Shown piece by piece: positions 8,844-15,067 of a stretch of 64,000 bases of DNA. Both the position numbers and the translations under genes were made by a program. How positions within the stretch are numbered: the stretch's first letter is position 1; each line of letters begins with the position of its first letter. Source of the DNA: Hyphomicrobium sp. CS1BSMeth3. GTDB taxonomy: Bacteria > Pseudomonadota > Alphaproteobacteria > Rhizobiales > Hyphomicrobiaceae. The notes under the pieces are model-generated. The model ran no database searches and was not told the origin of the DNA. It was given only the letters and a program-made list of their open reading frames with translations. The stretch lies in assembly GCF_900117415.1 (NCBI RefSeq), contig NZ_FPEI01000005.1, positions 682,001-746,000 on the forward strand, read 5' to 3'.

Positions 8844-9122
8844 GAGCTTGAACTGCCCGGAGCCGGCCGGCTCCGTCCCCCTGCGGATGGCACCGGTCGT
8901 GCGAGCAATCGCAGCGCCGGCGCCGCGTCCATTGTGACAGCAGTTGTCATCCGCACCAAGTGCGGCGGGCCGCGATCTTTCTTCACGGCGGCTCACTGGG
9001 CGTCGGCGCCGATCACGAAACCTTTAAGCCGTAGCCCCCCTGTTTCGCCTGATTAGAGTCGTTATAGATGAAGCGTCCAGCCCGAGCTCGGGCGTCGGAC
9101 CAAATTGGCAGGGAGCATCCGT

Positions 9123-9578
9123 ATGAAGAAGTCGAGTGTGTTGGCGGGGGTCGCTGTGCTCGCGACGATCGCCGTTGGCGCAACTGGCGTCAGCGTCGTC
9201 GCGCAAGATACGATCGCTCAGCGCAAGGCATTGATGAAGGCGGTCGGCGGCGCCAGCAAGACCGGCTCACAGATGGCCAAGGGCGAGGTGCCCTTCGACG
9301 CCGCCAAGGCCAGCGAGGCCATGGGCACGATCGCGACGAGCTGGGCAGCCTTCGCGAAGCTCTTCCCCAAGGGCTCGGAAACCGGCGGCGAAACGACAGC
9401 CTCGCCGAAGATCTGGGAAAGCTTCAAGGACTTCGAGGACAAGGGCGCGAAGCTCGCGAGCGATGCGACGGCTGCGCAGAAAGCTGCCGCGAATGGCGCC
9501 GACGCCTTCAAGGCCGCATTCGGCGACGTGACCAAGAACTGCGGCGGCTGCCACAAGCCCTATCGCATCCAGAAATAG
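9123..9578 (+). CDS. Cytochrome c' (class II c-type cytochrome)
   Basis: A 151-residue periplasmic haem protein. A Sec signal (MKKSSVLAGVAVLATIAVGATG) is followed by the four-helix-bundle cytochrome c' domain and, near the C-terminus, the haem attachment motif CGGCH (CxxCH) with KPYRIQK after it. Class II cytochromes bind NO or act in electron transfer; which applies here is not clear. The start is ATG 9123 with GGGAG 8 bases upstream; an upstream TTG at 9105 is unlikely. A strong terminator follows. The position beside bacterioferritin may be chance. Confidence 0.93.
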   Translation: MKKSSVLAGVAVLATIAVGATGVSVVAQDTIAQRKALMKAVGGASKTGSQMAKGEVPFDAAKASEAMGTIATSWAAFAKLFPKGSETGGETTASPKIWESFKDFEDKGAKLASDATAAQKAAANGADAFKAAFGDVTKNCGGCHKPYRIQK

Positions 9579-9605
9579 AGCCGCCACCCATCCTCGAGAA
9601 AAACC

Positions 9606-9652
9606 AACGCCGGCCTCTCGGAACTCATTCCCGAGAGGCCGGCGTTTCTTTT
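9606..9652 (+). terminator. Strong intrinsic terminator after cytochrome c'
   Basis: ACGCCGGCCTCTCGG and CCGAGAGGCCGGCGT form a 15 bp perfect stem around an 8-10 base loop, followed by TTTCTTTT. It also separates the + strand cytochrome gene from the convergent bacterioferritin gene. Confidence 0.92.
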
Positions 9653-9683
9653 GATGCCTGCAGCGATGACGCCGGGCGGGCGC

Positions 9684-10169
9684 TCAGTCGTGCTCGTCCG
9701 CCGATCCCGACTGGAGCTGGCCGTAGTTCTCGACACCGATCGACGCGAGGAGATCGAGCTGCGTCTCCAGGAAGTCGATGTGGCCCTCCTCGTCCTTCAA
9801 CAGCTCCTCGAAGAGCTGCATGGACACGTAGTCCTCCTCGCTCCGGCAGAGCTCGCGGCCCTTCATGTAGAGGTCGCGCGCGATGTACTCGCCCTTCAGA
9901 TCGCACTCCAGAACTTCCTTGATGTTCTGTCCGATCATGAGCGGTGCGATGTACTGCAGGTTCGGATGGCCCTCGAGAAAGATGATGCGCGTGACGAGCT
10001 TGTCCGCGTGCTCCATCTCCTCGATCGACTCAGCGCGCTCCTTCTTGGCAAGCTTCGTGAAGCCCCAGTCGTCGAGCAGCCGGTAGTGCAGCCAGTATTG
10101 ATTGATCGCCCCCAGCTCCAGTTTCAATGCCTCGTTCAAAATATCGAGAACCGGCTTCTTGCCCTTCAT
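9684..10169 (-). CDS. bfr: Bacterioferritin
   Basis: A 161-residue haem-containing ferritin that oxidises Fe(II) and stores iron as a ferric mineral inside a 24-subunit cage. The di-iron ligands are visible: Glu18 in [14 protein letters not shown] (Glu51-His54), Glu in the third helix, and DEEGH (Glu127/His130). Met52 within EMEH is the haem ligand that separates bacterioferritin from plain ferritin. The start ATG 10169 has GGAGG six bases upstream. It is the last gene of a minus-strand iron cluster with a Bfd-like ferredoxin two genes upstream, fitting iron release from the cage. Confidence 0.96.
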
Positions 10170-10214
10170 AGCGATCCTCCGCTTGCCTCGGACGGTTGGT
10201 CTACCAATCAATGA

Positions 10215-11417
10215 TCAACCGGCGCGCGCCGTCAATGACATAACGGCGCGCTCGAAGGAGGTCGCTCCAGCGGATCTCAATGGCAAGAAGGGTTTAGCGA
10301 ACTTCCGGCATAGCACCTTTGCCCTGAGGCATGCCGAATGGCTCACGCAGTCGATCGGGCAAACCACGGCATCACAGCCCTCGATCATGCCGTCGATGCG
10401 GACAAGGGCGTGCTCTTCCCCGCCGTCGTGGTGCACGAGCTCGGCGCCCATGCGCGAAGCGACGCGGCGCAGGTTCTCGATCGCCCCGCTGCGCCCGCCG
10501 ATGTAGAGAATGCGCCGCGCGATCGAGGTCCGGACCGTCTCGTCGCACACTTCGGCGCCAGGACAGGCGGGCATGATGCTCGCGGCTCGCATGCGCTGTT
10601 GCCATCGCAGGCGCTCGAGCTGACGCTGAAGATCGACGATCATGCGCTCGGCCGCACGCGCCCGCTCGCGAGCAACGGTCAGCGCGCGCTCGCGCCGGGC
10701 CGGCGGCTGGTCGGGGCGGCGTTCGCGACTACCGGGTAGCGCCACAGACGGCGCAGACGAGCGCGCGGTCTCGCTGAGCTGCGCGCGCACGGCATCACGC
10801 TCGATGACGACCTGGCGATGCCGCTCGGCCTGCCGCAGGAGCTTGGCCTCGAGATCGTCGAGGCGCGCCTGCAGCTCACTTGCGCGGCTTGCATTCTGAT
10901 GCGTCACGCGCCCCAGCACGTGGCTCAGCATGTGAACGTCGCCAAAGATGCGCGTGCCGAGCGCGCTCGGCACATGTGCCGCGCTCATGAAGGCCCAATA
11001 GGCACCGGCCACGCGTCCGCCGTCGAACTCCTCTTCCCACAGCCGCGTTAGGCAGGCTTCATCGCGCGCGCCCTGAACGCGACGGATGATCCCCGCATGT
11101 CGCTGGTCGAGCACCTTCTGCACGGTGCGCGCGACCTTGCTATCCTTGCCGACCTGCTGGACGAAGTAGCTGTGGACCTCATAGGCGCGGGCGCCCTCGC
11201 GCGGACGAACGCCGGCCTTGCGACCGATGGCGACGAGATCCTCGTGCGAGAGGCAAGTGCCGATGATCGAGCACTGCAGCCCACCTTGGATTTCCCAGAT
11301 CTTGTGGCGGGACGAAGCGCGGGCCTGCGGCTCCGGCTCGAGCGGCACGACACGCAGGTCAATGGCCGGGCGCCCGATGCGCGGTCCCTCTGCGGACCTT
11401 GTCGTGCGGCCCCGCAT
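10215..11417 (-). CDS. DUF2325 domain protein with central coiled coil
   Basis: A 400-residue cytoplasmic protein. The C-terminal ~95 residues match the DUF2325 pattern (RILYIGGRSGAIENLRRVASRMGAELVHHDGG, then CDAVVCPIDCVSHSACLRAKVLCRK), a Rossmann-like fold with several conserved cysteines. Residues about 175-290 are a long charged coiled coil, and the N-terminal ~170 residues form a helical domain with no name I recognise. It lies between a Bfd-like ferredoxin (27 bp upstream) and bacterioferritin (45 bp downstream), all on one strand. The cysteines and the context suggest an iron or redox role, but the function is unknown. The start is uncertain because no clear ribosome site is seen. Confidence 0.75.
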   Translation of the reverse strand: MRGRTTRSAEGPRIGRPAIDLRVVPLEPEPQARASSRHKIWEIQGGLQCSIIGTCLSHEDLVAIGRKAGVRPREGARAYEVHSYFVQQVGKDSKVARTVQKVLDQRHAGIIRRVQGARDEACLTRLWEEEFDGGRVAGAYWAFMSAAHVPSALGTRIFGDVHMLSHVLGRVTHQNASRASELQARLDDLEAKLLRQAERHRQVVIERDAVRAQLSETARSSAPSVALPGSRERRPDQPPARRERALTVARERARAAERMIVDLQRQLERLRWQQRMRAASIMPACPGAEVCDETVRTSIARRILYIGGRSGAIENLRRVASRMGAELVHHDGGEEHALVRIDGMIEGCDAVVCPIDCVSHSACLRAKVLCRKFAKPFLPLRSAGATSFERAVMSLTARAG

Positions 11418-11444
11418 TCGGCTGCTTACTCGCTCTGCTGTTGT

Positions 11445-11741
11445 TCAAGCCGGCTGGTCGGCGGCGACGCGCGGTTTCTTTCGCCCCGAGAGGCGCGCGA
11501 GCTGCTTCTTGGTCGCTGCGCAGCGATAGGGACAGATGAGGCCCTGCTTCTCGAGGCGCTCCATGGCCGTATAGATCGTCTCGACGGCGAGCGGCGCGCA
11601 CGAGCAGCAATTGAAGCGTTGGTTGAGCGTGCGATAGACGAGACCGGGCGTCGGGATCGGTGCGTCCGGGAGGTTCAGCAAGTAGAGGAGCGCCCTGCCG
11701 ATATCGGCATCGCTGATCACATTGCAGTGGCAGACGATCAT
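11445..11741 (-). CDS. Bfd-like [2Fe-2S] ferredoxin
   Basis: A 98-residue protein starting MIVCHCNVISDADI, the hallmark of bacterioferritin-associated ferredoxin. Cys4, Cys6, Cys45 and Cys48 give the C-x-C...C-x-x-C [2Fe-2S] ligand set; Cys46, Cys70 and Cys74 are extra. The Bfd domain is about 65 residues; the Lys/Arg-rich C-terminal ~30 residues are an addition. Bfd passes electrons to bacterioferritin to mobilise stored iron, and bfr is encoded two genes downstream. Its start overlaps the stop of the upstream Cys-rich gene by four bases (11738-11741), showing translational coupling. Confidence 0.88.
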   Translation of the reverse strand: MIVCHCNVISDADIGRALLYLLNLPDAPIPTPGLVYRTLNQRFNCCSCAPLAVETIYTAMERLEKQGLICPYRCAATKKQLARLSGRKKPRVAADQPA

Positions 11742-12283
11742 GACAGTCGTTCCGGACGGTTACGCGCGCGGAGCCGGCAAAGGCCGCGCTGACCGTCGAG
11801 CAGACGCATCGGCCAATCGGCCGACAACTCCAGGCCATTTTCCTTGAGGGTCGCGGCAAGCGCACACGACTGGCCCATTACATCTTCGCAGTCGCAGGTC
11901 TCGAGGAGCGCCTTCGTGCAGGCCTGCATCGCGGGACATACGCCGTGTTGCATCGACGCGACAAGCGATACAGCGACGCACTCGTCACGGCAGAAGCCGC
12001 GGCATGGCCCCGGAAAGACCTCGATCTCGCGCCGGCTCGCAGCCGTGATCGCGCGCACCCAGCACGACAGATCACCGACGATCCGTCGTGCGGCCTTAGG
12101 CCCGAGCTCGGCCTCGAAGAGCTGCCACGCCTGCTCCCAGCAGGCGATGTCGCTCGTCTGGTAGCCCGCAACCCAGTGGCGGAAACCGAGCGCCACCAGC
12201 CGGTCGGCGCCGGACAGATCCGGCACATAGCTGAACCGCGCCGGCCCGGCTGCCGTATCGTCCCGATCCTTGAGCATCGTCAT
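11738..12283 (-). CDS. Unknown cysteine-rich protein in iron operon
   Basis: A 181-residue protein with ten cysteines, eight of them packed in residues 94-140: CRGFCRDEC, CPAMQAC and CDCEDVMGQSC. There is no signal peptide or membrane helix, so it is cytoplasmic. The N-terminal half is helical and rich in Trp and aromatic residues (GFRHWVAGYQ, CWEQAWQLFEAELG). The spacing suggests a metal or Fe-S cluster site, but I do not recognise the family. The stop overlaps the start of the Bfd-like gene by 4 bp, and the gene begins 45 bp after the Fe(III)-binding protein gene, so a role in iron handling is inferred from context. The start at 12283 lacks a good ribosome site; ATG 12277 is an alternative. 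Confidence 0.7.
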   Translation of the reverse strand: MTMLKDRDDTAAGPARFSYVPDLSGADRLVALGFRHWVAGYQTSDIACWEQAWQLFEAELGPKAARRIVGDLSCWVRAITAASRREIEVFPGPCRGFCRDECVAVSLVASMQHGVCPAMQACTKALLETCDCEDVMGQSCALAATLKENGLELSADWPMRLLDGQRGLCRLRARNRPERLS

Positions 12284-12327
12284 GACGCAACTACCGTTCG
12301 GTGGCGCCTATCCCTGGGATCCGGCCG

Positions 12328-13371
12328 TCAGGTGCCGGGGCCCGCATCGAACTTGACCTTGTCGACGAGCTCCGAAGCTTTCTTACGCTGAGCGGCGATA
12401 TTGGCGAGCGGGGTCTTGTCCGGCTCGAGCTTGCCCCAGCTCTGCACGAGCTCCGTCGGCGGCACCTTCGGATCGATCGGATACTCGCTGTTCGCCTCGG
12501 CGTAGAGCCGCTGGCCTTCCTCGGAAGCCAGGAAAGCCATGAGCTTCAGCGCCGCAGCCTTGTTCGGCGCGCTCTTGATCAGCGAGACCCCCGAAACATT
12601 CACGTGCGTACCGGTCGTGCCGGCATCGGGGAAGATGATCCGGACGCTCTCCGCCCACTCCTTCTGCTTCGGGTCCTTGAGCATCGCCGCCATGTAGTAG
12701 GTGTTGGCAAGCGCAATGTCGCAGAGCCCGGCCTTGACGTCGCGGACCTGCTCGCGATCGCCGCCGGCAGGCTTGCGGGCGAGGTTGTCCCGCACGCCCT
12801 TGAGCCACTCTTCCGTCGCCGCCTCGCCCTTGTGCGCGAGGACGGATGCGATCAGCGAGACGTTGTAGACGTGCTGGCCGGAGCGCGTGCAGATCTTGCC
12901 CTTCCACTTCGGATCGGCGAGCTCGGCATACGTAATGGCGTCCTGCTTGACGCGCTCCTTGGAGGCGTAGATCACGCGGCCGCGCAGCGTCAGCCCGAAC
13001 CAGTGCCCCTCGGGATCACGGAAGTTGGCCGGGATTGCCGCGAGCTCCTTGACGTCGGTCACGGGGACGCCGGCCGTGATGCCGCGCTCCTTGGCTTCCG
13101 TTAGGCGCCCGATGTCGACGGTGAAGAGGACGTCGGCGGGGCTGTTGGCGCCCTCGGCCTGGATGCGTTCCTCGAGGCCCGCGTTGGCGAAGATCACGTT
13201 GGTCTCGATGCCGGTCTTGGCCGTGAAGGCCTTGAGCAGCGGATCGATGAGCTGGGGCTGGCGGTAGGAGTAGATGTTGACCTTTTCAGCGGCCGAGGCG
13301 GCGCTTGAGGTCAGCGAAGAAGAAAGCGCGAGGGCCGCAGCCAGTGCGCCCACGCAGGCAGTCAGTCTCAT
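12328..13371 (-). CDS. Fe(III) ABC transporter substrate-binding protein (FutA/FbpA type)
   Basis: A 347-residue periplasmic binding protein. A Sec signal (MRLTACVGALAAALALSSS, cleaved near ASA) leads into the family strand KVNIYSYRQPQLIDPLL. The iron-site tyrosines are visible in IYSYR and in ANTYYMA, as in FutA and FbpA, which take up ferric iron released from carriers. GGAG stands six bases before ATG 13371. No permease or ATPase gene is beside it, so it must work with a transporter encoded elsewhere. An Irr-type ICE-like motif about 120 bp upstream and iron-related neighbours support the role. Confidence 0.93.
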   Translation of the reverse strand: MRLTACVGALAAALALSSSLTSSAASAAEKVNIYSYRQPQLIDPLLKAFTAKTGIETNVIFANAGLEERIQAEGANSPADVLFTVDIGRLTEAKERGITAGVPVTDVKELAAIPANFRDPEGHWFGLTLRGRVIYASKERVKQDAITYAELADPKWKGKICTRSGQHVYNVSLIASVLAHKGEAATEEWLKGVRDNLARKPAGGDREQVRDVKAGLCDIALANTYYMAAMLKDPKQKEWAESVRIIFPDAGTTGTHVNVSGVSLIKSAPNKAAALKLMAFLASEEGQRLYAEANSEYPIDPKVPPTELVQSWGKLEPDKTPLANIAAQRKKASELVDKVKFDAGPGT

Positions 13372-13491
13372 GTCGAGCTCCAGTGTCTCGGGAGTCAAGG
13401 TCCCGGGTCTGAGCGGATAAACTGTACTATGTCGGTAGAGAAATACCTGCGCGCACGCGCCTGTCAAGGGGCGGGATCAATCACTTAAGCG

Positions 13492-13508
13492 ATTGGAATT
13501 CTTCTAAA
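13492..13508 (-). promoter_or_regulatory. Irr-box (ICE)-like element
   Basis: ATTGGAA-TTC-TTCTAAA matches 12 of 14 defined positions of the Irr ICE consensus TTTAGAA-N3-TTCTAAA: the right arm is perfect and the left has two mismatches. It lies in an AT-rich island about 120 bp upstream of the Fe(III)-binding protein gene. Irr controls iron genes in Hyphomicrobiales. Confidence 0.55.
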
Positions 13509-13560
13509 TATAAAGTGCCGCGCAGCGATTGGACGTACGCCTCGCGAAGCTCTTCAAGCG

Positions 13561-14082
13561 TCACGATTTTGGCGGTAGCGCACGCCCCGGCCGCTCGACG
13601 CGCACCGCGCGCGCAGCGGTGGTCTGCAGCGGCTTGCGGGACGATTTGCCGCGCGATTTCGCCGGCGTCCGGCCGCCTCGCGACGCGGGTTTTCCGGCAT
13701 CGGCTGCTGCCGATGCCTCGCGCGCGACCATGTCGGCAAGCGAATGACGGTCGAGCACGGCGATGAACGCCTCGAGGGCATCATCGAGCACGCGCGTCAC
13801 GCCGGCACCCGTATCCAGCGCAGGCTCGGTCGATTCCATCGCACGCACGATATCGCCGACGAAGATCGTCTCGGCAGGGCGGCTCAGGCGAATGCCGCCG
13901 TGACGCCCGCGCACGGCCGCCGTCAGGCCGGAACGCGAGAGAATGTGCACGATCTTGAAGACGTTCTGCATGGTGATGTCGAGCGACGCGGAGAGATCGA
14001 CGACCTTCACCAGCGCACCTTCCGCGCGCGCGCAGGCGATCAGGATCCGGATGGCATCGCCGGTCGATTTATTGAGCCGCAT
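13561..14082 (-). CDS. Rrf2-family regulator lacking the Fe-S cysteines
   Basis: A 173-residue winged-helix regulator. Residues 1-85 align with RirA/NsrR/IscR: MRLNKSTGDAIRIL, a recognition helix region DITMQNVFKIVHILSRSGL, and the wing VRGRHGGIRLSRP. In RirA and NsrR three cysteines follow (near 90-105) and hold an Fe-S cluster; here that stretch reads MESTEPALDTGAGVTRV and has none. The only Cys is Cys17 in helix 1. The C-terminal ~55 residues are Lys/Arg/Ala-rich and extra to the family. It is set among iron genes, so a RirA-like iron role is likely, but sensing must differ from RirA. Confidence 0.85.
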   Translation of the reverse strand: MRLNKSTGDAIRILIACARAEGALVKVVDLSASLDITMQNVFKIVHILSRSGLTAAVRGRHGGIRLSRPAETIFVGDIVRAMESTEPALDTGAGVTRVLDDALEAFIAVLDRHSLADMVAREASAAADAGKPASRGGRTPAKSRGKSSRKPLQTTAARAVRVERPGRALPPKS

Positions 14083-14240
14083 GGTGCCAGAGCCTCAATG
14101 ATTCCAATCGTGCCAACTTTGCCTTGCATCCGCGCCGGCCGGATCCTGCCATGGCCGCCTGCCGGGCATATCTACCGCACCTACAGCCCCTTGGCGAGGC
14201 AGACCCAAATAAATGCGCCCGAGCCTGGGAAGCCGCCCCG

Positions 14241-14423
14241 TCATTTGGTCAGGATCAGCTTGCCGTTCGACGTGACGCGCAGGCGGTAGTCGGAGCCATT
14301 GTGAACGATAATGGCCTCGCGACGCCCGCCGAGCAGGTCGGCCAGCTCGATCCGTATCGGATCCTGCCCACGGGACTGGCCCGCGGCATCGGGCTGAGCC
14401 CCCCCGGGACCCTTCGAGCTCAT
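14241..14423 (-). CDS. hmuP: Haemin uptake protein HemP/HmuP
   Basis: A 60-residue protein whose C-terminal half carries the HemP signature: LLGGRREAIIVHNGSDYRLRVTSNGKLILTK pattern (residues about 28-60). In Bradyrhizobium and Sinorhizobium, HmuP activates transcription of haem uptake genes together with Irr. The start ATG 14423 has GGAGAG nine bases upstream; the longer frame (to 14540) runs through the divergent regulatory region. It is divergent from an HmuQ-like haem monooxygenase gene with a 203 bp shared upstream region holding a dyad. No haem receptor or transporter gene is in the window. Confidence 0.92.
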   Translation of the reverse strand: MSSKGPGGAQPDAAGQSRGQDPIRIELADLLGGRREAIIVHNGSDYRLRVTSNGKLILTK

Positions 14424-14467
14424 CTCCACACACTCTCCAGGACATGCCATGGGGCATCCTTGGTATA

Positions 14468-14486
14468 CTTGACTCAAATGGTCAAG
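14468..14486. promoter_or_regulatory. Dyad operator with TGA-N9-TCA core between hmuP and haem monooxygenase
   Basis: CTTGAC (14468-14473) and GTCAAG (14481-14486) form a perfect inverted repeat with a 7-base spacer. The central TGA-N9-TCA (14470-14484) matches the Iron-Rhodo-box used by RirA-type Rrf2 regulators. It lies 45 bp upstream of hmuP and 140 bp upstream of the divergent gene, and an Rrf2 gene lies next to hmuP. Confidence 0.55.
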
Positions 14487-14626
14487 AAGAATGCGCGCGG
14501 CACCCCGCCGACCTGACGGCGGCGACCGGGGGCTGCGCATTTGCCGCGCGGGCGCCGGGCGGCGGATCGTCGTGCTATCCTCGGCCGATCACCATCCATG
14601 TGGACCTGAACCCCAGGGAGCACACG

Positions 14627-14977
14627 ATGTATATCGCCATGAACCGCTTTCGCGTCATCAAGGAGCGCGCGAAGGACTTCGAGCAGGTCTGGACGAGCCG
14701 CGACAGCTACCTCCACGAGGTGCCGGGTTTCGTCGCTTTTCATCTCCTGCGAGGCCCCGAGCACGAGGACTACCAGCTCTATGCCTCGCACACGATCTGG
14801 CGGAGCCACGATGATTTCGTCGGCTGGACGAAGTCGGACGCCTTCCGCAAAGCGCACGCCCGCGCCGGCAATGAAACCACGCAGCCGCTGGTCGCCGGGC
14901 CGTCGCAGTTCGAGGGCTTTCAGGTCGTGCAGGAAGTGCGTCAGGACGGCAGCAAGATCCGCCATGTAAGCGACTGA
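14627..14977 (+). CDS. HmuQ/HmuD-like haem-degrading monooxygenase (ABM fold)
   Basis: A 116-residue ferredoxin-like ABM-domain protein. It begins MYIAMNRFRVIKER and has FEQVWTSRDSYLHEVPGFVAFHLLRG and DYQLYASHTIWRS, the pattern of Bradyrhizobium HmuQ/HmuD and IsdG-type haem oxygenases, which open the haem ring and free its iron in the cytoplasm. The conserved Asn, Trp and His residues expected for this group (N6, W22, H75 in this count) are present. AGGGAG lies six bases before ATG 14627. Divergence from hmuP supports a haem-iron role; plain antibiotic-biosynthesis monooxygenase is the fallback name. Confidence 0.85.
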   Translation: MYIAMNRFRVIKERAKDFEQVWTSRDSYLHEVPGFVAFHLLRGPEHEDYQLYASHTIWRSHDDFVGWTKSDAFRKAHARAGNETTQPLVAGPSQFEGFQVVQEVRQDGSKIRHVSD

Positions 14978-15067
14978 GGCCGGAACGCAGGCGGGCCATG
15001 CGCAGTCGCCGCAGGAATGAGAACAAACAATAAACTTCCGGTCGACCAAACGGCCGAATCAGCGCAT

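Follow-up and report, generated by a model that had tools for sequence, protein, structure and literature searches.

The closest described relatives of the locus reported here are the Bfd/BfrB pair of Pseudomonas aeruginosa (4e6k), the irpA-bfd-bfr genes of Rhodobacter sphaeroides (RSP_1548-1546) and the ferric-iron ABC (ATP-binding cassette) importers FbpABC and FutABC. In R. sphaeroides an imelysin-type gene (irpA), bfd and bfr carry consecutive locus tags and are raised in low iron, as stated in the available part of PMC3413700, and a portion of PMC4344238 places bfd and imelysin within a predicted iron-related regulon. Our locus lies in a 64,000-nucleotide stretch (the window) of Hyphomicrobium sp. 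CS1BSMeth3 (contig NZ_FPEI01000005.1, positions 682,001 to 746,000) and joins fbpA, a gene for a cysteine-rich protein of an unnamed family (called CYS here), a Bfd-like gene, a DUF2325 gene and the bacterioferritin gene bfr on one strand. The reading that we favour, and to which we give an even chance, is that these five genes form one iron-regulated unit behind an Irr-box-like site and that CYS is a member of the iron regulon which is not dedicated to bacterioferritin.

As in P. aeruginosa, the window has a Bfd-like gene beside bfr, and its product has the CxC...CxxC ligands. When the Bfd-Bfr interface residues listed in the available part of PMC13366587 are compared, the window Bfr keeps P69, N70, Q72 and G80 of the Bfd site and has M78 and I79 in place of L78 and L79. 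The window proteins differ from those of P. aeruginosa in a longer x38 spacing, a TPG insert and a CPxxC tail in the Bfd-like protein, in I2 and H5 of this protein instead of Y2 and L5, and in H68 of Bfr instead of L68; no mutants of the Bfd-Bfr interface were found in the literature. The window shares bfd and bfr with R. sphaeroides too. Moreover, some distant CYS relatives directly precede imelysin, and loci L141-L143 have the order CYS-imelysin-Bfd-Bfr. In the window, however, fbpA precedes CYS and the imelysin genes sit elsewhere in the genome. The window FbpA is clearly of the FbpABC/FutABC class, whereas the FbpB permease homologue (56% identity) also lies elsewhere in the genome. No Fbp operon described so far is known to us to contain a gene like CYS.

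Gene order and neighbourhoods of CYS

In the direction of minus-strand transcription the window carries a hemP-like gene, an Rrf2 regulator gene, fbpA, CYS, the Bfd-like gene, DUF2325 and bfr, and the frames of the last four are open and intact. The sequence-only reading had presented these four same-strand genes as an iron-storage operon with a 4-bp overlap between the first two. The order is real, the overlap of CYS and the Bfd-like gene is indeed 4 nt (ATGA), and the assignment to iron holds. The start of the operon at CYS did not stand: fbpA, on this strand too, ends 44 nt before it, which makes CYS-bfd-DUF2325-bfr the last part of a longer run of genes. The gaps between the Bfd-like gene and DUF2325 and between DUF2325 and bfr are 27 nt and 45 nt, and fbpA to bfr would be transcribed as one mRNA. 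The same reading had counted ten cysteines in CYS, where the translation has 11, and had correctly seen several more in the DUF2325 protein (10 counted).

Related CYS genes were compared in 81 loci, that is 80 named loci and the window; L090 has no called CYS in the gene-order table of 80 loci yet is included in the neighbour count of 81. A gene for FbpA, FbpB, Bfd-like protein, Bfr or imelysin lies at most 4.5 kb from CYS in 68/81 loci. FbpA and FbpB are the commonest neighbours and FbpA-CYS-FbpB the commonest arrangement; eight FbpA open reading frames (ORFs) labelled as downstream were here read, individually unchecked, as upstream FbpA overlapped by an over-extended CYS ORF. The second-ranked layout is CYS-Bfd-(Bfr), often behind an Rrf2 gene. 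A third has CYS before imelysin genes with proteins that we take to be diheme DUF1111-like and DUF1513-like. The available part of PMC3143127 may be compared with it. The complete series fbpA-CYS-bfd-DUF2325-bfr-imelysin occurs in three of the four congeneric loci examined (L033, L035, L036), the fourth (L034) being cut by a contig end.

The same neighbourhoods bear on the proposal of the sequence-only reading, that CYS, the Bfd-like protein and DUF2325 act together on bacterioferritin as a dedicated system for releasing or sensing its iron. Beyond the 4-nt overlap, the Bfd-like gene stands directly downstream of CYS (less than 300 nt, same strand) in 22/81 loci, an adjacency that recurs beyond the genus and once among the 19 distant loci (L183, CYS-Bfd-Bfr); the order Bfd-DUF2325-Bfr is also found in relative G023 (L204), and CYS and Bfd co-occur among relatives with a Fisher p of 5e-4 in which kinship is ignored. 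However, FbpA and FbpB are commoner neighbours of CYS than these genes, and DUF2325 is present in 12 of 60 relatives only. Furthermore, CYS homologues occur in 33/60 relatives (the window's genome included), and five of the 60 have CYS without Bfr and the Bfd-like gene (G012, G021, G025, G035 and G036), while ten have Bfd and Bfr without CYS. The five genomes are drafts of about 100-380 contigs and 92-98% completeness, where a gene may be missed singly but hardly in all. Since CYS is found without both partners in five genomes and is absent from ten that have both, a dedicated bacterioferritin part is not supported, and we consider the dedicated system quite unlikely, although CYS may still act on Bfr where the genes are linked. 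Adjacency in relatives, on which that proposal depended, is kept for Bfd and Bfr, mixed for CYS and inconstant for DUF2325, and the four genes were rejected as a conserved unit because of the last.

Irr-box-like sites

An Irr-box-like palindrome (iron control element, ICE) stands before the unit, and Irr is predicted to bind it. This site is the only match to TTTAGAANNNTTCTAAA within 3 mismatches in the 64 kb (2 mismatches; expected 0.11), at least one site being found in 11 of 100 shuffles. The surrounding block is conserved between the window and four congeneric loci while its flanks vary; folding of the strand around the site gave no result.

Across the 81 loci (974,630 bases) 47 sites with at most 2 mismatches were found, compared with 0, 0, 0, 1 and 1 in five simulated sets. 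When 3 mismatches are allowed, the 1.7 kb upstream of CYS hold a site in 72/81 loci, against 3/74 downstream segments of about equal length. In a control matched to gene starts (-300 to +60, at most 3 mismatches) a site was seen in 32/42 cases where CYS is the first gene of its unit and in 1/38 where it is not; the counts are 38/42 for FbpA, 5/22 for Bfr, 0/18 for the Bfd-like gene and 17/505 for the background. In twelve of the 13 CYS loci without an iron neighbour such a site precedes the ORF start by 91-299 bp, nine of the twelve belonging to one Hyphomicrobium lineage and three (L115, L128, L144) lying elsewhere on the tree. The presence of these sites even where CYS stands alone, together with its iron-gene neighbours, argues that CYS is part of an iron regulon.

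In L106, L109, L113, L116, L122, L125, L127, L129 and L139 of the Hyphomicrobium lineage CYS follows a histidine kinase gene and has no iron neighbours, and the gap between the two genes holds an Irr-box-like site.

The CYS protein and its family

The window CYS gave no Pfam, NCBIfam or PHROG match up to an E-value of 1, and no match at a meaningful E-value was obtained in a sequence search of the PDB. Its structure model is all-helical and confident (mean pLDDT 87.7). By eye it has neither a signal peptide nor a membrane segment, and the protein is therefore probably cytosolic, in the compartment where imported iron and iron released from the store would come together. The residues R35, W49, L72, C98, D100, E101, C102, A104, A109, Q112 and L126 are invariant in 80 aligned sequences. 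Of the 11 cysteines of the window protein, C98 and C102 alone are cysteine in all 80; C94 and C48 are cysteine in 68/80, C116 in 57/80 and C122 in 58/80. R35 and E101 also never vary, and D100 hardly does, in a set of 34 members chosen for diversity. This set (A4) combines the window with 13 near loci and with 20 rows that represent the 19 distant loci L179-L197. Two other sets were used: A1 holds 24 of 28 rows (L061, L034, L035 and L049 left out, the truncated L064 and L059 dropped earlier), and A2 holds 66 of 80 rows after near-identical, short and X-bearing rows had been dropped.

The conserved CxxxCRDEC motif and the invariant acidic pair suggest a metal or cluster site, and for this reason an iron-binding carrier, acceptor or sensor is favoured. 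We propose that FbpA would capture ferric iron for import and that Bfd would reduce the iron of the genome's single Bfr and so release it. CYS, a cytosolic helical protein, would bind Fe(II) or a small iron-sulfur (Fe-S) cluster through C94, C98 and C102 with D100 and E101, and could accept, carry or sense iron that has come in by way of Fbp or imelysin or has been released from bacterioferritin. A wider and more doubtful proposal, which we put forward tentatively, is that CYS founds an undescribed alphaproteobacterial family of cytosolic iron carriers or acceptors which would pass iron between Fbp/imelysin import and the Bfd-Bfr store, and in which the Hyphomicrobiales clade gained a Cys-ligated iron or Fe-S site. 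To our knowledge little has been described of how bacteria move iron within the cytosol between the steps of import, storage and use. The small CYS family, which stands repeatedly beside uptake, imelysin and bacterioferritin genes and carries regulator-like boxes even when alone, is a direct and cheap candidate for tests of this handling.

The cysteines could also be structural (zinc or disulfide) or have a redox protective role, in a protein that is iron-regulated without any iron chemistry. The invariance of only two of 11 cysteines, the lack of both in most distant members and the lack of a match to a known metalloprotein agree with this, and the family of the neighbouring DUF2325 protein has a link to oxidative stress (Cj1384c, in the available part of PMC9426514). 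It accounts less well for the invariant acidic pair beside the conserved cysteines and for the repeated linkage to genes of iron import and storage, and we hold it to be rather unlikely.

A first profile found CYS in 27 of the 289 genomes drawn from the class, the window's genome included. A wide profile found it in 44 of the 398 drawn from the phylum, and 43 of these 44 belong to Alphaproteobacteria, the class of the window. Named strains with CYS include Hyphomicrobium facile DSM 1565 and H. zavarzinii ATCC 27496, and most of the named related loci come from metagenome-assembled genomes, judging by their titles. No description of CYS was found in the literature; a nameless family is not searchable by name, so that one may still be published. 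The nearest family that could be pointed to is DUF6628 (PF20333), which matches 13/66 CYS members weakly (best 0.0021) and 4/34 of the wide set (best 1.9e-4), in each case below the Pfam cut-off, and does not match the window CYS. By eye, both have a cysteine pair followed by a glutamate in a similar place. DUF6628 has no assigned function, and its one member over the cut-off in 190 genomes (L178) has no iron neighbour with the profiles used.

Many distant CYS relatives (L179-L197, L289-L314) end in a C-terminal histidine, with 15 of 30 rows in the held-out set, as do 20 of 80 members of the near family. Two neighbouring genes of the CYS superfamily occur in L292, L294, L296 and L298 (four genomes, one order, family code f184), one member of each pair ending in His and the other in Cys.

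Distant relatives and weighing of the iron-regulon reading

The distant relatives bear in both directions on the reading of CYS as an iron regulon member with an iron site, and several further observations weigh against it. In its favour, distant alphaproteobacterial CYS relatives tend to carry Fur-box-like sites: with at most 2 mismatches these were found upstream of 21/28 distant CYS against 9/523 control segments and, in a gene-start control, in 11/19 against 6/178 gene starts, although the pattern was drawn up with some of the same sequences in view. The 28 rows comprise 19 distant loci and nine short loci and include three rows from the single genome G150; L172 gave no hit and three upstream stretches were cut by contig ends. 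Because the pattern was fitted on sequences already seen, a held-out test counts more, and there the site was present in 7/30 rows against 8/269 segments (p 2e-4), a much lower rate than 21/28. The Irr-type site was not enriched in the held-out rows (1/30 versus 8/269). L290 and L293 were excluded from this set as their genomes had been seen, and L285-L288 were not taken, being from seen genomes or from the Hyphomicrobiales clade.

With the profiles used, the distant CYS loci are mostly without iron-gene neighbours (1/19 with one), and in the held-out set 5/24 loci of about 3.4 kb adjoin iron genes, a weak FbpB-profile match in L294 (8e-8) being left out. In four of these five (L291, L302, L304, L310) CYS directly precedes an imelysin (irpA-type) gene and no Fur-like site was found; the fifth, L306, adjoins Bfr and Bfd. 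Most of the distant members in the 34-member set keep the D-E pair and a cysteine at position 94 without C98 and C102. The cysteine motif is thus derived, and a Cys-ligated cluster would hold for one clade only. In addition, the search of solved folds with the CYS model gave no meaningful match (best E 0.34).

When placed on the CYS tree, the partner sets require a minimum of 15 changes, which argues against inheritance of the iron link as a single block, but the count comes from a single tree of weak resolution (19 of its 76 inner branches are starred) and can be inflated by contig-cut loci. All four cysteines are present in 26/30 loci near Bfd/Bfr genes and in 3/13 without an iron neighbour, an enrichment of C116 and C122. 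As independent evidence for an iron context it was rejected, since these positions changed only twice on the tree.

The Irr-box consensus used for the scans is one that we assumed. A scan of positions 9560-14600 for sigma-70-type promoters found none, and there was none to place the Irr-box-like site against. The half-site TTCTAA alone was found in the literature, as the mutated part of the Sinorhizobium meliloti mbfA ICE (available part of PMC7540006), and the full consensus was not found there. The available sections of PMC3413700 describe Irr as acting by way of such boxes and as a repressor of its targets when iron is depleted, an argument against low-iron induction of the unit; one title in its reference list mentions positive and negative control by the element. 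Our guess is nevertheless that the unit would be raised in low rather than in high iron, because FbpA has an uptake role and bfd is induced by low iron in Caulobacter (part of PMC3751524) as well as in R. sphaeroides.

Bfd-like protein and bacterioferritin

Bacterioferritin is identified by the equivalog model TIGR00754 (190 bits, cut-off 125.55), and M52, which we take by position and role to be the heme-ligand methionine, is present in the translation aligned to a solved Bfr. A search of the window's own genome gave one bacterioferritin match, and the profile of the Bfd-like family matched the window gene only. The Pfam Bfd model gave four hits in this genome, all of them domains within open frames of 542 to 961 aa. 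With one Bfr and one free-standing Bfd-like gene, the latter is the sole candidate Bfd seen for the sole Bfr seen.

The Bfd-like protein does not reach the cut-off of PF04324 (Fer2_BFD; E 0.018, 15.8 bits, cut-off 26), and 21 of 22 members of its family match this model with E-values of 1 or lower, the best being 5.3e-7. The solved P. aeruginosa Bfd (4e6k_G) is the best PDB match of the family profile (E 9e-4). In a fold search it ranks fourth, with rmsd 2.8 and a TM of 0.67 on the target, at a non-significant E of 3.3. All 22 aligned members have C4, C6, C45 and C48 and the TPG insert; C70 and C74 of the tail are present in 17/22 and 13/22, and neither insert nor tail is found in the aligned P. 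aeruginosa Bfd.

The Bfd-like gene was found in 37 of the 60 relatives, a Bfr over the cut-off in 39 and both in 35. By a count made by eye on the coordinates, 32 of these 35 have the pair on one strand and no more than about 1.4 kb apart, the misses being G003, where contigs are split, G024 and G051. The sequence-only reading of a Bfd-like ferredoxin beside bacterioferritin is borne out as a divergent Bfd tied to Bfr, and the two genes are an ordinary conserved pair of the lineage with an unusual Bfd.

Rrf2, kinase and DUF2325 genes

The best NCBIfam model for the Rrf2 protein is RirA (1.5e-23), at 83.2 bits and below the cut-off of 193. RirA has three cluster-ligating cysteines. The window protein has one, C17, where three are expected, and an Fe-S cluster of the usual kind is therefore unlikely in it. 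Of the 18 related Rrf2 rows, 17 carry no more than two cysteines, in most cases just C17, the exception (L069) being probably an over-extended ORF. These low-cysteine proteins could find a sensory or regulatory partner in CYS, which would sense iron or an Fe-S cluster for the Rrf2 protein or for a histidine kinase. Consistent with this, a same-strand Rrf2 gene lies within five genes of CYS in 18/80 loci and a kinase gene lies upstream within five genes in 38/80, directly before CYS in the Hyphomicrobium lineage. However, 62/80 loci have no same-strand Rrf2 gene within five genes, only part of the tree shows the kinase context, and CYS has no DNA-binding or signalling domain among Pfam and NCBIfam matches. 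Such a partnership is improbable in our view.

DUF2325 stands between the Bfd-like gene and bfr not only in the genus of the window but also in G023 (L204) and L098 (BRH_c36), and it follows the Bfd-like gene in L134. It is present in 9/80 CYS loci, and in 5 of the 12 relatives that have it the short loci examined show no Bfd, Bfr or CYS neighbour. It is a local addition to the locus. A redox or stress accessory role is possible by analogy with the Campylobacter protein Cj1384c, which links the family to oxidative stress; the available part of PMC9426514 reports the largest induction in a violet-blue-light study for a small DUF2325 protein encoded beside katA. The window protein has an N-terminal CSIIGTCL stretch in common with a second copy in the same genome. 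This copy (L002, G000:C2:1212917-1213192) is 35% identical and stands beside a gene that is presumably moeA-like.

Other features of the locus

Table 1. Features of the iron locus in the window, listed from upstream to downstream on the minus strand
Feature	Position	Strand	Evidence and remarks
HemP-like small protein	14241..14540	-	PF10636 6.1e-18; HemP domain is the final 36 residues of the ORF
Rrf2-family regulator, RirA/NsrR-like, single cysteine C17	13561..14082	-	PF02082 5.4e-21
Irr-box (ICE)-like palindrome before fbpA	13492..13508	.	17 bp; consensus match, 2 mismatches
FbpA/FutA-type periplasmic ferric-iron-binding protein	12328..13371	-	PDB 1y9u 1.8e-97, 1q35 (FbpA) 1.4e-95; PF13343
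CYS, 181 aa, unnamed cysteine-rich family	11738..12283	-	motif C94-x3-C98-R-D-E-C102
Bfd-like [2Fe-2S] ferredoxin, 98 aa	11445..11741	-	C-x-C-x38-C-x2-C, TPG insert, CPxxC tail
DUF2325 protein, 400 aa	10215..11417	-	PF10087 1.3e-20
Bacterioferritin	9684..10169	-	TIGR00754 2.6e-56; nearest solved structure 8sqo 6.6e-73
Terminator-like hairpin after bfr, then T run	9606..9646	-	18 pairs, 12 G-C

The start of fbpA was taken as the ATG at 13371, the mechanical ORF beginning with a TTG at 13467; similarly, bfr likely starts at the ATG at 10169 and not at the mechanical TTG at 10211. An Rfam scan of positions 9000-15000 gave no result. Two terminator-like sites were found in the stretch, compared with 2.6 in shuffles, and the one that does not follow bfr has 5 pairs only. 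After bfr, where three congeneric loci carry imelysin genes, the window has a cytochrome c' gene (PF01322) at 9123-9578 on the plus strand.

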